Positions 15,461 through 51,165 of a stretch of DNA of 64,000 nt are shown piece by piece. A program made the translations under genes and the position numbers. Positions within the stretch are counted from its first letter, which is position 1; each line of letters starts with the position of its first letter. The stretch comes from an uncultured Clostridia bacterium (lineage in GTDB: Bacteria > Bacillota > Clostridia > Christensenellales > Aristaeellaceae). The notes under the pieces are model-generated. The model was not told the origin of the DNA and did not search any database. It saw only the letters and a program-made list of their open reading frames with translations. The stretch spans positions 1-64,000 of the forward strand of contig CANRLC010000003.1 of the NCBI GenBank assembly GCA_947631405.1, given 5' to 3'.

Positions 15461-15467
15461 CGCCGCC

Positions 15468-15840
15468 CGTCGGCCTCATTCGCCTAAGTATGACCCGCTC
15501 CAACCTCATTCGGAGTTGGCGGCGGCCACCGGCCGCCTAGCGCAAAGGTTTAACCTCAGACCGTCGGCCTCGTTCGCCCAAGCATGACCCGCTCCAACCT
15601 CATTCGGAGTTGGCGGCGGCCACCGGCCGCCTGGCGCAAAAGATTAACCGCAGACCGTCGGCCTCGTTCGCCCAAGCATGACCTGCGCCAGCCTCATTCG
15701 GAGATGGAAGCGGCCACCGGCCACCCGGCGCAAAGGTTTAACCTCAAACCGTCGGCCTCGTCCGCTCGAGCTGGCATAGCAAACGACTTGTTCGGAGATG
15801 GAAGCGGCCACTGGCCGCGCCGCCCGCCAGCACGTTTGGA
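15468..15840. repeat. family C tandem repeat, 94-base period
   Basis: Three units begin with CGTCGGCCTC at 15468, 15562 and 15656, exactly 94 bases apart; a fourth, degenerate unit starts at 15750. Each unit holds CTCATTCGGAGWTGG and the small palindrome GCGGCCACCGGCCGC. There are no unique spacers, so this is not a CRISPR array. No gene is visible in 15424-15877, where this repeat and the terminator make up nearly everything. Confidence 0.9.
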
Positions 15841-34937: not shown

Positions 34938-35078
34938 ATGAACCCGCCCGGGATCGCTTCGCTTCCGGGCTACCTTTTGCAATCGCTTCGCGATTGAGGT
35001 GACGTTGGGGCTACCGCCCCAAACCCTGTCTGGGGACATTGTCCCCAGACCCCTACATGTGCTTCGCACCGCATGAAA
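34938..35078 (-). repeat. family B element, copy B1 (reverse orientation)
   Basis: Reverse complement of the elements at 48.4 and 51.0 kb. It contains the four hairpins GTCTGGGGA/TCCCCAGAC, TTGGGGC/GCCCCAA, AATCGC/GCGATT and CCCGG/CCGGG in order. It sits just downstream of the mrp stop codon, between convergent genes. Confidence 0.9.
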
Positions 35079-46257: not shown

Positions 46258-46473
46258 ATGAAGAAGAAGCAAAAGAGCCGCATCGGCTACCGCGTGGCCG
46301 CGGGCGTCATGGACGTATTCGGCGCGGCGGCGGCGGCGCTGGCGATCGTCGTGCTGATGCTGATGCTGGGCAGCCTCGTCTCGTGGCTGCGGCAGGACTT
46401 GGCGGTGACGTTCGCCGACCTGAGCGACAACATCACGGGCGCGGTGCTCGTCACCGAGCCGCAGGGCCGGTAA
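46258..46473 (+). CDS. small single-pass membrane protein
   Basis: A 71-residue protein with a lysine-rich head ([12 protein letters not shown]), one hydrophobic segment (about 20-43, [20 protein letters not shown]) and a polar tail ([20 protein letters not shown]). The ribosome site GAGGAGGAGGA is strong. No known family. It precedes a uracil-DNA glycosylase gene by 14 bases and is likely in the same transcript. In the 99 bases before it a short frame without start codon (RVFTDRNEAFAWLEGL) resembles a gene remnant. Confidence 0.6.
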
Positions 46474-46487
46474 AGGGGGACGGGCGC

Positions 46488-47108
46488 ATGAGGGCGTCGT
46501 GGCCGGAGCTGGAGGCGCAGATCGCCGCGTGCTCGCGGTGCAGGCTGTCGCAGACGCGCACGCACACGGTGCTGGGCGAGGGCGACCCGCACGCCGCGCT
46601 GATGTTCGTGGGCGAAGGCCCCGGCCAGCAGGAGGATCGCACGGGCCGTCCGTTCGTCGGCCCCGCGGGGCAGCTGCTGGACAGGATGCTCGCGGCGATT
46701 GCGCTCACGCGCGAGCAAGTGTACATCTGCAACGTGGTCAAGTGCCGCCCGCCGAACAACCGCGTGCCGGAGGCGGACGAGCGCGAGGCCTGCATGGGCT
46801 ACCTGCGAGCGCAGACAGCGCTGGTGCAGCCGAAGGTGATCGTCTGCCTCGGCTCGACCCCGGCGCGGGCGCTGCTGGGCGACGATGTGCGCATCACGCG
46901 CGACCGTGGCTTGTGGCATCTGCGGCGCGGCGTGTGGTTTTTGGCCACGTTCCACCCGGCGGCGCTGCTGCGCGACGAGGCCAAAAAGCGCCCCGCGTGG
47001 GAGGATTTTCAGGCGATACGGGACAAACTACTGGAGCTTCGCGCGCATCCCGCGCTCGCGCAGGACGCGCCGCAGGCGGATCAGACGGGCTTCATCCCGA
47101 TCTCGTAG
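46488..47108 (+). CDS. uracil-DNA glycosylase, family 4 (Fe-S type)
   Basis: A 206-residue glycosylase that removes uracil from DNA. It carries [20 protein letters not shown] with [13 protein letters not shown] (water-activating and uracil-binding motifs) and [13 protein letters not shown] with the C-terminal histidine motif. The cluster cysteines are visible as CSRCR near residue 15 and [10 protein letters not shown] near residue 86, spaced as in family 4 enzymes. A C-terminal tail of about 30 residues is extra. The ATG at 46488 follows AAAGGGGGA. Followed at once by a cysteine-free paralogue. Confidence 0.92.
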
Positions 47109-47126: not shown

Positions 47127-47711
47127 ATGGAAAGGTATCGGAGAGAGCTGCGCGCGTTTGTGGCGAGCGTGCTGCCGGGGCGGGAGAGCGCGCTGGTCTT
47201 CGGCGAGGGGCCGAAGGGCGCGCGGCTGATGCTCGTGGGCGAGGCGCCCGGCGAGCAGGAGACGCTGCTCGGCCGCCCGTTCGTCGGCCCGGCGGGGAAA
47301 AACCTCGATCGCTTTTTGGAGATCGCGGGCCTGCGCCGCGAGGAGATCTACATCACCAACGCGGTCAAGCTGCGCCCGACCAAGGTGGGCAAAAGCGGCC
47401 GCGTGAGCAACCGCCCGCCCACGCGCGAGGAGATCGAGCTGTTCAGGCCGTGGCTGCTGCGCGAGATCGAATGGATCGCGCCGGGGATGATCGCCACGCT
47501 GGGCAACGTGCCGCTGCGCGCGCTGCTGGGCGCGGGCAAGACCATCGGCCAGACGCACGGGCAGCTGCTGCATCCCGAGGGCATCCCCGCGCCGCTCACG
47601 CCGCTCTACCACCCGGCGAGCCTCATCTACAACCGCGCGCTGGAGGGCGTCTACGAGCAGGACGTCCTCGCGCTGGCGCGGCGGCTGGGCAAGGGACAGG
47701 CCGCGCGTTGA
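47127..47711 (+). CDS. uracil-DNA glycosylase-like protein lacking all cysteines
   Basis: A 194-residue paralogue of the preceding enzyme. It keeps GARLMLVGEAPGEQETLLGR and PFVGPAGKNLDRFL, YITNAVKLRPTKVGKSGR in place of the Cys-bearing segment, and TPLYHPASLIYN as the C-terminal motif. The protein contains no cysteine, so it cannot carry the 4Fe-4S cluster of family 4. Clostridia have such cluster-free relatives. Activity on uracil is not guaranteed. It starts 18 bases after its neighbour and shares its transcript. Confidence 0.85.
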   Translation: MERYRRELRAFVASVLPGRESALVFGEGPKGARLMLVGEAPGEQETLLGRPFVGPAGKNLDRFLEIAGLRREEIYITNAVKLRPTKVGKSGRVSNRPPTREEIELFRPWLLREIEWIAPGMIATLGNVPLRALLGAGKTIGQTHGQLLHPEGIPAPLTPLYHPASLIYNRALEGVYEQDVLALARRLGKGQAAR

Positions 47712-47817: not shown

Positions 47818-48309
47818 ATGCTAGAATTTCTGATCGCCAACCTGCCGATGCTGCTCTGCCTGCTGCTGGGCACGGGGCTGATCGTCGCCGAGGTGTTCCT
47901 GCCCGGCTTCGGCCTGCCCGGCATCACGGGCATCGCGCTGATCGGCGTGGGCATCGTCCTCGCAGGGGTACACTTCGGCGCTCTGGTCGCCGTGGGCATC
48001 CTGCTCGTGCTCATCGCGCTTCTGACCGTGCTGATCTCGTGGGTGCTGCGCTCCGCCGCCAAGGGCAGCGTGGGCCGCTCCGAGCTGTTCCTGCGCGAGA
48101 AGGACGCGCTGGGCGACGCGGAGGACATGCGCGCGCTGGTGGGCCGCAGGGGCCGCACGCTCAGCGTGCTGCGCCCGTCCGGCATCGGCGATTTCGACGG
48201 GGTGCGCCTCAACGTCGTGACGCAGGGCGACTTCATCGAGAAGGATCGCGACGTCGAGATCGTGGACGCGCAGGGCGCGCGCATCGTCGTGCGCGAAATC
48301 ATCGACTGA
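47818..48309 (+). CDS. NfeD family membrane protein
   Basis: A 163-residue protein of the short NfeD type. Three to four hydrophobic segments (PMLLCLLLGTGLIVAEVF; FGLPGITGIALIGVGIVLAG; LVAVGILLVLIALLTVLISW) are followed by an OB-fold domain (about 100-163) with ALVGRRGRTLSVLRPSG, GVRLNVVTQGDFIEKDRDVEIVD. NfeD proteins work with flotillins in membrane organisation, and floA follows 233 bases downstream. The gap between them is occupied by a family B element. Confidence 0.9.
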   Translation: MLEFLIANLPMLLCLLLGTGLIVAEVFLPGFGLPGITGIALIGVGIVLAGVHFGALVAVGILLVLIALLTVLISWVLRSAAKGSVGRSELFLREKDALGDAEDMRALVGRRGRTLSVLRPSGIGDFDGVRLNVVTQGDFIEKDRDVEIVDAQGARIVVREIID

Positions 48310-48336: not shown

Positions 48337-48470
48337 GGTGCGAAACACAGGATGGGGTCTGGGGACAATGTCCCCAGACAGGGTTTGGGGCGGTAGCCCC
48401 AACGTACCCCAATCGCGAAGCGATTGCCAAAGGTAGCCCGGAAGCGAAGCGATCCCGGGCGGGTTCACTA
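48337..48470 (+). repeat. family B element, copy B2
   Basis: Starts near GGTGCGAAACACAGG and runs GGGGTCTGGGGACAATGTCC, GGTTTGGGGCGGTAGCCCC, AATCGCGAAGCGATTG, AGCCCGGAAGCGAAGCGATC to CCCGGGCGGGTTCA. It lies between nfeD and floA on the same strand, so it would be transcribed as four hairpins within the operon if there is read-through. Confidence 0.92.
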
Positions 48471-48542
48471 CGAAAATCTTTTGATTTGTGAATAGTATGA
48501 ATCATCCGGGCGTCTAGCCCGTAATTACAGGAGGGAAACAAA

Positions 48543-49520
48543 ATGGTTGAAGGCATCGTGCTCGTCGTCGTCATCCTCATCGCCGTCATCGTGTTTTTGA
48601 GCTTTGTGCCGCTGGGGCTGTGGGTGTCCGCGCTCGCCTCCGGCGTACACGTCCCCATGTTCACGCTGCTGGGCATGCGCATCCGCCGCGTCGCCCCGGC
48701 GAAGATCGTCATCCCGCTCATCAAGGCCGAGAAGGCCGGGCTGCGCATGGAGATCAGCAAGATGGAGGCGCACTATCTGGCGGGCGGCAATCTCGACCGC
48801 GTCGTCACCGCGCTCATCACCGCGCGCGGCGCGAACATCCAGCTCGGCTTCGCCGAGGCCTGCGCGATTGACCTCGCCGGGCGCGACGTATTGCAGGCCG
48901 TGCAGATGAGCGTCAACCCCAAGGTCATCGAGACGCCCGTCGTCGCCGCCATCGCCAAGGACGGCATCGAGCTGCGCGCCAAGGCGCGCGTCACCGTCCG
49001 CGCGAACATCGAGCGCCTCGTCGGCGGCGCGGGTGAGGAGACCATCGTCGCCCGCGTGGGCGAGGGCATCGTCACCACCGTCGGCTCCGCCGAGACGCAC
49101 AAGGCCGTGCTCGAGAACCCCGACCTCATCAGCCGCACGGTGCTCAACAAGGGCCTCGACGCCGGCACGGCGTTTGAGATCCTCTCCATCGACATCGCGG
49201 ATGTGGACGTCGGCCGCAACGTCGGCGCGCAGCTGCAGATGGATCAGGCCGAGGCCGACCGCCGCATTGCGCAGGCCAAGGCGGAGGAGCGCCGCGCGAT
49301 GGCCGTCGCCCGCGAGCAGGAGATGAAGGCCGCCGCGCAGGAGCAGCGCGCCAAGGTCATCGAGGCCGAGGCCGAGGTGCCCAAGGCGATGGCGTCCGCG
49401 CTGCGCGAGGGCAAGCTCGGCGTGATGGACTACTACCAGATGAAGAACACCATTGCCGATACGTCGATGCGCGAGTCCATCGCCTCCATCGGCGGGGATA
49501 CGCAGATCAAGAAGAAGTAA
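48543..49520 (+). CDS. floA: flotillin-like protein FloA
   Basis: A 325-residue flotillin organising functional membrane microdomains. One N-terminal hydrophobic segment ([19 protein letters not shown]) is followed by a SPFH/band-7-like domain ([60 protein letters not shown]) and a C-terminal coiled coil rich in [19 protein letters not shown]. Length and layout match Bacillus YqfA/FloA. AGGAGGGAAAC precedes the ATG. Confidence 0.95.
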
Positions 49521-49551
49521 GATCGCGAAGGATCAAGGGAGGTGAAGCCGC

Positions 49552-50133
49552 GTGGATTTCGTCATCATCCTCGTCCTGTTCTACCTCTACGCGGTCGTCT
49601 TTTCCGCCGCGAGCCGCAAGAAGCGCGAGAAGCGCAAGGCGCGCCGCGAGGAGAGACGCTCTGCCCGGCGGACGGCCGTGAACATGCCGCCGCAGGCCTT
49701 CGCCGCCAAGGAACCCGCGCAGGGCGAAGCGACGCCCGCCCCGGCACACGCGCATGAGGCGGGCGAGGGCGAGGATCCCTGCCACGAGGGCATGCTGCGT
49801 CCCGCGCGGCCCAGCGTGTTCGCGCGAGAGGCGACGCCCTCCCAGCTCGCCGCGGCGGGCGAAGGGGAGGATCCCTGCCACGAGGGCGGGATGCGCCCTG
49901 CCCGACCCGGCGTGTACGCGCGGGAGGCGACGCCCTCCCAATTCGCCGCGGCGGGCGAGGGGGAAGATCCCTGCCACGCGTTCGCCCCGCCGCCGGACGA
50001 ACTGGACATCGGCGCCCCGCAGGACGAGCCGCTGAGCGATGAGGCGCGCGCGCTGCTCTCGGGCGTCATCCTCTCCGAGGTGCTCACAAGCCCGCGCGAG
50101 CGCATCCTGCGCCGCAGGCTGGGGATGAGGTGA
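49552..50133 (+). CDS. membrane-anchored EGEDPCH-repeat protein, unknown function
   Basis: A 193-residue protein from GTG 49552 after AGGGAGGTG. One N-terminal hydrophobic segment (VIILVLFYLYAVVFSA) precedes a strongly basic region (KKREKRKARREERR), which puts the rest in the cytoplasm. Two perfect 32-residue repeats (96 bases each, from 49762 and 49858) plus the beginning of a third carry GEGEDPCHEG, with M-RPARP-V-AREATPSQ between. A final helix has EARALLSGVILSEVLTSPRERILRRR. The Cys-His pairs could bind metal, but this is not shown. It follows floA by 31 bases and probably acts with it. Confidence 0.6.
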   Translation: MDFVIILVLFYLYAVVFSAASRKKREKRKARREERRSARRTAVNMPPQAFAAKEPAQGEATPAPAHAHEAGEGEDPCHEGMLRPARPSVFAREATPSQLAAAGEGEDPCHEGGMRPARPGVYAREATPSQFAAAGEGEDPCHAFAPPPDELDIGAPQDEPLSDEARALLSGVILSEVLTSPRERILRRRLGMR

Positions 50134-50137
50134 TCGC

Positions 50138-50902
50138 ATGGCGGAGCAGGCGGACATCCGCGTGGCGATCGCGGACGACGAGGAGGGCATGCGCCTCATC
50201 CTGCGCAAGCTGATCGAGGGTGAGGAAGGGTTCACGCTCTGCGGCGAGGCGAAGGACGGGCGGGAGCTGCTCGCCCTCGCGGCGGAAAAGCGGCCGCAGG
50301 TCTGCATATTGGATGTGGAGATGCCGGGCCTGTCGGGCCTTGAGTGCGCCCGGCTGCTGCAAGATACCGACCCGCAGACCGTGCTCGTCTTCGCCACCGC
50401 GCACGAGGGCTATATGGCCGAGGCGTTCGAGGTGTACGCGTTCGACTACTGGGTCAAGCCCTTCAAGATCGACCGCGCGAAGCAGACGCTGGGGCGCATC
50501 CGTCAGGCGCTGCGCCGCGAGCTGCCCGCGCAGCCGCGCAGGGCCGCGGAGAACCGCGCCGCGCGCGGCGCTTCGGGCCGCATCATGCTGCGCCACCGCG
50601 AGGGCGTTCACTTCGTCAGCCAGCAGGACATCCTGCTGGTGCAGCGGGAAAACCGCGCGACCGTGCTCTACGCCAAGGGCGGCAGGCGCTTTGAGACGAG
50701 CGAGCCGCTGGGCGAGGTGGAGGCGCGGCTCGACAAGCGGCTGTTCTTCCGCTGCCACAAGTCCTACATCGTGAACCTGAACGCGGTGGACAGCATCACG
50801 CCCTACGGCCGCTGGACCTACGTCGTCCACCTGACCGGCACCGATCAGGACGCGCTCATCACGCACGATAAGTACGAGGAGCTGGAGCGGATGTTCTCCT
50901 GA
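50138..50902 (+). CDS. LytTR-family response regulator
   Basis: A 254-residue two-domain regulator. The receiver domain (1-120) has the acidic pair Asp13/Asp14, the phosphorylated Asp59 in VCILDVEMPGLSG, Thr87 and Lys107 in YWVKPF. The LytTR DNA-binding domain (about 150-254) has GVHFVSQQDILLVQRENRAT, FFRCHKSYIVNLNAVDSI. Regulators of this kind control extracellular polysaccharide, bacteriocin or cell-wall genes. It starts four bases after the preceding stop. The kinase at 53766 may be its partner. Confidence 0.92.
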   Translation: MAEQADIRVAIADDEEGMRLILRKLIEGEEGFTLCGEAKDGRELLALAAEKRPQVCILDVEMPGLSGLECARLLQDTDPQTVLVFATAHEGYMAEAFEVYAFDYWVKPFKIDRAKQTLGRIRQALRRELPAQPRRAAENRAARGASGRIMLRHREGVHFVSQQDILLVQRENRATVLYAKGGRRFETSEPLGEVEARLDKRLFFRCHKSYIVNLNAVDSITPYGRWTYVVHLTGTDQDALITHDKYEELERMFS

Positions 50903-51002: not shown

Positions 51003-51140
51003 GGTGCGAAGTACGGGGTGGGGTCTGGGGACAATGTCCCCAGACAGGGTTTGGGGCGGTAGCCCCAACGTAACCTCAATCGCGAAGCGATTGCCAAAAG
51101 TAGCCCGGAAGCGAAGCGATCCCGGGCAGGTTCACCATGA
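51003..51140 (+). repeat. family B element, copy B3
   Basis: The same four-hairpin unit as B2, beginning GGTGCGAAGTACGGGG and ending CCCGGGCAGGTTCACC. It lies between the two 41-base direct repeats, as if inserted in a terminator-like hairpin that was then duplicated. The 386-base gap 50903-51288 is filled by these repeats and about 80 AT-rich bases (51207-51288) with nothing recognised. Confidence 0.92.
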
Positions 51141-51165
51141 ATATGATTTGATTTGAGAAAAGCAT

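Follow-up and report, generated by a model that had tools for sequence, protein, structure and literature searches.

A membrane-anchored protein with EGEDPCH repeats encoded directly after floA in an uncultured Clostridia bacterium

The floA locus and the architecture of X

The window analyzed here—the whole stretch of DNA, 64,000 nucleotides in length—contains an apparent operon around a flotillin gene on the forward (+) strand. The nfeD gene (47818..48309, +), located 5′ of floA, encodes the NfeD membrane domain and a C-terminal partner-binding domain (PF01957, E 7e-11; PF24961, E 2e-7). It is followed by floA (48543..49520, +), whose product is the flotillin-like protein FloA of 325 aa (PF12127, E 3e-159; NCBIfam equivalog NF010186). 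Directly 3′ of floA and on the same strand, 31 nt from its stop codon, lies the floA-partner gene that we call X (49552..50133, +; 193 aa), as delineated by its open reading frame and its orthologues. X begins with a GTG start at 49552, preceded by the ribosome-binding site GGGAGGTG (49537..49544, +). After a gap of 4 nt, a LytTR response regulator (50138..50902, +; PF00072, E 2e-22; PF04397, E 2e-19) forms the final gene of the apparent operon, and this regulator stays 3′ of X in most orthologous loci of the genus. The GC content here is ~70%; a promoter and terminator scan found no sigma-70 site and a terminator count at chance level.

The surroundings bear several further features. Two uracil-DNA-glycosylase-family genes (46434–47108 and 47127–47711; PF03167, E 1e-38 and 4e-32), adjacent to one another, are positioned 5′ of nfeD. 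A dispersed repeat of 121–131 bp flanks floA–X–LytTR (48345–48475, +, and 51013–51141, +) and recurs at 34939–35061 on the minus strand. With a predicted RNA fold of −59.8 kcal/mol (z −3.8), it forms several stable hairpins, and at least 40 copies with 91–100% identity occur in the genome—40 of 148 candidates were scored. It resembles REP or MITE elements. Further away, 15467–15818 holds a tandem array with a 94-bp unit, 3.2–3.7 copies, and 85–90% matches.

In the X protein, an N-terminal transmembrane helix (residues 2–21; 49555..49614, +) is apparent from the sequence, and the AlphaFold2 model extends this helix over residues 2–43, with a block pLDDT of 94–88 at the start. It leads into a Lys/Arg-rich stretch (residues 22–41; 49615–49674, +). 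By the positive-inside rule, a basic stretch after a transmembrane helix marks the cytoplasmic side. Hence, the following arm is predicted to reside in the cytoplasm. Over most of residues 41–160, the model is of low confidence (mean pLDDT ~49–63). A disordered middle with EG motifs, which characterizes the family described below, appears in X as this low-confidence region together with three copies of EGEDPCH. Confidence rises again at residues 161–190 (block pLDDT 84–90), where a helix (163–178), a Pro break, and a second helix (181–190) form the family-defining C-terminal box (50038..50121, +). A family HMM, trained with X included, matches residues 168–182 with E 1e-4; in the genome scan, the match is weak and in place (E 0.0046). 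These data support the description of X as a membrane-anchored, mostly disordered protein of the flotillin operon. The membrane anchor next to flotillin that the initial annotation had read from this DNA is thus found in both its parts—an N-terminal helix in X and floA adjacent upstream.

The EG-motif arm and its repeats

The arm of X carries two repeat units of 96 bp with EGEDPCH at the start of each (49765..49860 and 49861..49956, +), followed by a partial third unit, of which the motif remains (49957..49977, +). The three motifs (49765–49785, 49861–49881, and 49957–49977) recur with an exact period of 96 bases, and in the longer form GEGEDPCH is present three times. TRF delineates the array at 49758–49978 with a period of 96, 2.3 copies, 87% matches, and a score of 337. 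Both the repeats and the exact DNA period proposed in the initial annotation are hence real. Its claim that the copies are recent holds only in part. The partial third copy, matching in 26 of 28 bases, is private to this species among the close orthologues sampled. Units 1 and 2 agree in only 82 of 96 bases; they differ in 13 codons, 8 synonymously and 5 nonsynonymously, with the motif residues unchanged. Moreover, motifs spaced by 31–33 residues are also found in nine orthologues with two copies, so that the first repeat pair predates the species of the window, being ancestral to several species, and a recent duplication is ruled out for it. In another genus of the family, locus L088 encodes three EG[IT]DPCH motifs that are 23 residues apart, and this array is an independent expansion. 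In the genome to which the window belongs, no gene other than X has the motif pattern, and a class-wise sample of 244 further Clostridia genomes lacks it altogether.

Among the window's own genome and its relatives, orthologues with both motif and C-terminal box are present in 23 of the 60 genomes searched, the own genome included. By their contig names, the carriers comprise Christensenella sp., Candidatus Ventricola, and other uncultured Clostridia, with animal guts as a frequent source. All 24 floA-positive genomes sampled in the genus encode a C/H-containing form, two of them, beyond the 23 above, with the forms QGEEPCH and EGTCDHQH; the remaining five sampled genomes of the genus, 75–82% complete, have neither floA nor X. 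In 19 aligned orthologues with 24–38% identity to X, the invariant columns are E, G, D, C, and H in the motif together with L and P in the C-terminal box, which leaves EGxDxCH as the invariant part of the X linker. Around these residues the motif varies, as in EGEDTCH, EGKDPCH, QGVDPCH, and EGYDPCH. A survey of floA loci, proposed beforehand as a check on whether the motif is absent in all relatives, thus finds it retained, and the alignment supports the view that EGEDPCH is under constraint rather than a product of linker drift.

Across the wider family, the common feature is EG and not the Cys–His pair; most relatives bear EG repeats without Cys, or neither. In 111 nonredundant linkers, the EG dipeptide occurs 154 times with 64 expected, whereas GE occurs 82 times with 64 expected. 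Also enriched are [SA]xEG (65 vs. 12 expected), EGx(0–4)C (33 vs. 2.1), and CH (22 vs. 2.2). An EG motif is found in 67 of the 111 linkers, 44 being expected, and since many X members lack it, the EG arm motif is not universal. In a set of 152 nonredundant linkers, Cys is located almost solely at positions +2, +3, and +5 relative to the Glu of EG. Two or more C/H within 12 residues after EG occur in 37 of these linkers, where 4.2 are expected and 500 shuffles reach 10 at most, and a His-only version in 9 of 152 against 2.4. The clearest Cys/His forms are those of the window's order—EGEDPCH, EGCxEHYD, EGxxLHxPGFHGE, and EGTCDHQH—and EG repeats without Cys are encoded elsewhere, for example in L245, L248, and L259. 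Six further loci show differing Cys/His forms after EG (L034, L049, L111, L157, L161, and L165; among them EGICDEHPEHS, EGCDEHYD, and EGCEEHYYE). Such differing forms in the X proteins of other Clostridia suggest repeated rewriting of one motif.

Repeat expansion itself is a recurrent trait of these genes. Strong tandem repeats (score of at least 100) are present in 12 of 171 X genes and in none of 171 floA genes, and the expansions arose independently in L088, L110, L112, L180, L224, and others. Tandem repeats of low score were discarded as a signal since floA has them too (23 vs. 11 at a score of at least 60).

A family recognized by its C-terminal box

Inspection of whichever gene comes next to floA, in place of a similarity search, revealed X as one form of a much wider family. 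The box HMM was grown from X orthologues, and X genes were picked by position and box, taking the first possible start codon; statements on lineages rest on kinship labels. The family consensus of the box, LxxGIIxSEILxxPKxxR, ends 1–34 residues from the C terminus, and the rows of its alignment retain E (98%), L (91%), and P (94%). Of 182 distinct Clostridia floA loci, this HMM finds 151 with a box protein—one per locus—3′ of floA. As these 151 include hits from iterative training, it is not the E-values but the controls that carry the claim: none of 715 opposite-strand ORFs and none of 755 shuffled proteins match. Reading the other 31 loci by eye adds 20 divergent boxes and brings the total to ~171 of 182. 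A neighboring X is clearly absent at ~10 of the Clostridia floA loci, three of which (L198, L211, and L220) have LytTR directly after floA. At the phylum level, a box protein is encoded at 42 of 49 further floA loci, including two genomes of 6.8–7.3 Mb; L275 and L267 are examples of phylum members with the box after floA. Apart from the box, the family is variable. A transmembrane helix is found in 136 of 171 X proteins, some members being without it, and the smallest members of 61–66 aa comprise little beyond the box, which is helical also in the model of a 61-aa member.

The linkage to floA does not depend on gene position alone. A 52-row box alignment was searched in 291 Clostridia genomes, whose floA status was taken from an independent PF12127 search. 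Matches below 1e-4 are present in 77 genomes, all 77 floA-positive, and in 0 of the ~201 floA-negative genomes (Fisher p 3e-57, ignoring phylogeny). Most of these matches adjoin floA; in G129 and G229, however, X lies on another contig than floA, with both in the genome. Hence, the association with floA extends beyond adjacency, although a contig break could explain G229. This strict co-occurrence lends support to the earlier reading of X as a possible scaffold that is coupled to floA.

X matches no model of Pfam-A or NCBIfam above the curated cut-offs. With E 0.2–0.5 for Pfam DUF92, Conotoxin, YxzE, and AP-5 and E 0.16 for NCBIfam PP0621_fam, the sub-threshold candidates stay well under their cut-offs and mostly involve the hydrophobic/basic N terminus. 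Other X members tested against both libraries are likewise without a match, save for a collagen match just above the cut-off in L245 that is due to Gly-rich EG repeats. A PDB search with family and box profiles gave nothing credible, the best match being Hook3 (E 0.5). Class-wide matches of the full-length profile to long proteins—for example, at six places in one genome (G048), with 1,600–1,900 aa—cover the N-terminal half only and were rejected. X therefore belongs to a little-known family that is absent from the Pfam-A and NCBIfam models and may be annotated under another name. The family libraries miss it because everything but the box diverges too fast; the box, in turn, provides a handle for finding its members.

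Possible roles of X at the flotillin complex

Recent flotillin work takes FloA and NfeD as a functional pair (PMC11222466). Our data suggest an overlooked third partner of flotillin, one with a flexible arm that evolves fast by multiplying short motifs. Similar to NfeD, X is a small membrane protein that is encoded with floA and would direct its predicted cytoplasmic part toward FloA (for NfeD, PMC11222466). Unlike NfeD, it is mostly disordered and has no PF24961 or PF01957 match; its gene is on the opposite side of floA, and the two proteins occur together. In Bacillus subtilis, the floA operon yqeZ–yqfA/floA–yqfB is sigma-W regulated, and sublancin resistance has been reported for it (PMC3498285, PMC8144471). 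Its yqfB is, like X, the gene directly after floA in an nfeD–floA operon (PMC3498285), a likeness of gene position, and YqfB may or may not be of the same family. For B. subtilis YqfB, no function was found in open-access PMC papers. The amidohydrolase YqfB of Escherichia coli shares only the name with it.

Another parallel, in architecture, is given by PacL of Actinobacteria (DUF1490), which combines a transmembrane anchor, cytoplasmic repeats, a disordered region, and a short metal-binding motif (PMC9374683). X resembles it in anchor, cytoplasmic repeats, disorder, short motif, and operon linkage, and PacL forms membrane foci (PMC9374683). There are differences, though: a Pfam-A search up to E 1 finds no DUF1490 (PF07371) in X, its motif sits in the middle of the protein whereas that of PacL is C-terminal, and its neighbors are NfeD, FloA, and LytTR whereas PacL1 pairs with a metal-exporting P-ATPase. 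Furthermore, PacL1 foci are flotillin-independent, whereas X is linked to floA.

We propose, with a probability of roughly 60%, that X is a lineage-specific third protein of the flotillin operon, with a membrane tether, an arm of EG motifs, and a C-terminal box that docks most likely on FloA. According to sequence and model, the N-terminal helix would anchor X in the membrane and leave the rest in the cytoplasm. The long disordered arm would display the EG motifs, here EG-x-D-P-C-H three times, and the helix–Pro–helix box would dock the protein, with co-occurrence pointing to FloA as the most likely site. In this way, FloA clusters might gain many copies of a weak motif, by which a client or ligand is recruited or retained at the membrane microdomain—in analogy to other tethers with short linear motifs. 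Tandem duplication would rapidly alter how many motifs there are and which form they take, with the docking box left in place. A plausible setting for the arm is given by NfeD-bound FloA oligomers, which hold unfolded client proteins (PMC11222466). In the lineage of the window, each motif contributes a Cys–His pair, and clustered on a FloA oligomer these pairs might, speculatively, bind a transition metal jointly or sense thiol state. Both the binding of the box to FloA and the multivalent recruitment by the arm are inferred from sequence patterns, and a metal or redox role in the Cys/His lineages is speculative.

How much weight the Cys–His pairs deserve is the first point on which the evidence divides. 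Within a FloA cluster, Cys–His pairs contributed by several arms could jointly coordinate Zn or a different transition metal, or else make redox-sensitive links. Assembly would then be under their control, and X would be a metal- or thiol-dependent scaffold, as the initial annotation had suggested. This idea, which we entertain tentatively, draws on the invariant C and H of the motif among aligned orthologues, on the focusing of linker Cys at +2, +3, and +5 with at least two C/H in 37 rather than 4.2 linkers, on the His-only forms that replace Cys forms in relatives (9 vs. 2.4), and on the precedent of PacL1, a scaffold that likewise has a membrane anchor and operon linkage and that carries a metal-binding motif (PMC9374683). 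Yet the majority of the family has EG motifs without Cys/His or none at all, the His-only enrichment is modest, and no metal transporter gene is seen beside X. The single-motif members L020 and L021 bear just one motif Cys–His pair, too few ligands per molecule; hence, any metal site would need several X molecules, which a FloA cluster could supply. Drift lies at the other extreme: the arm would be the low-complexity linker of a minor membrane protein, its motif kept by descent and repeat slippage. Fast linker evolution, tandem repeats by slippage, and the GC content of ~70% would fit. However, no other part of the linker is as conserved as the motif, with overall identity at 24–38%, the enrichment is directional—EG, not GE—and the independent expansions in other lineages again contain EG, which makes drift scarcely credible.

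The docking partner is the second such point, as adjacency and co-occurrence also fit docking to NfeD or another flotillin-linked protein. NfeD lies 5′ of floA in 149 of 159 checkable loci, and co-occurrence can hence not separate the two; moreover, NfeD of Staphylococcus aureus binds the coiled-coil region of FloA (PMC11222466). Against a box that docks on NfeD—or on a flotillin-associated protease or chaperone—instead of FloA, X is kept at 6 of the 10 loci that were checked and in which no adjacent NfeD was detected, though NfeD may be elsewhere or truncated in these; we consider this docking unlikely. Even less probable, and indeed very unlikely, is X as a membrane signaling adaptor that feeds the LytTR response regulator and is no flotillin partner. 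At most loci of the genus the regulator gene comes after X, and at 55 of 182 Clostridia loci it is no more than 2.3 kb downstream of floA. However, ~119 X genes have no nearby LytTR, whereas nearly all X genes have floA, and L198, L211, and L220 have LytTR without X.

If X is the FloA-docked tether that we favor, it would be a natural candidate for client choice by membrane microdomains, as it occurs only with floA and combines one docking helix with a multivalent arm that is constantly rewritten. A bolder generalization, which we regard as rather doubtful, is that Firmicute flotillin complexes possess an obligate third component, a FloA-docked tethered arm whose repeated motifs set recruitment, and that the Cys/His ligands of one order make the cluster metal- or redox-responsive. 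In Bacillus-type strains, the gene directly after floA gives access to the partner model. Independent of X, the presence of LytTR near floA in 55 of 182 Clostridia loci constitutes a recurrent flotillin–regulator linkage of its own.
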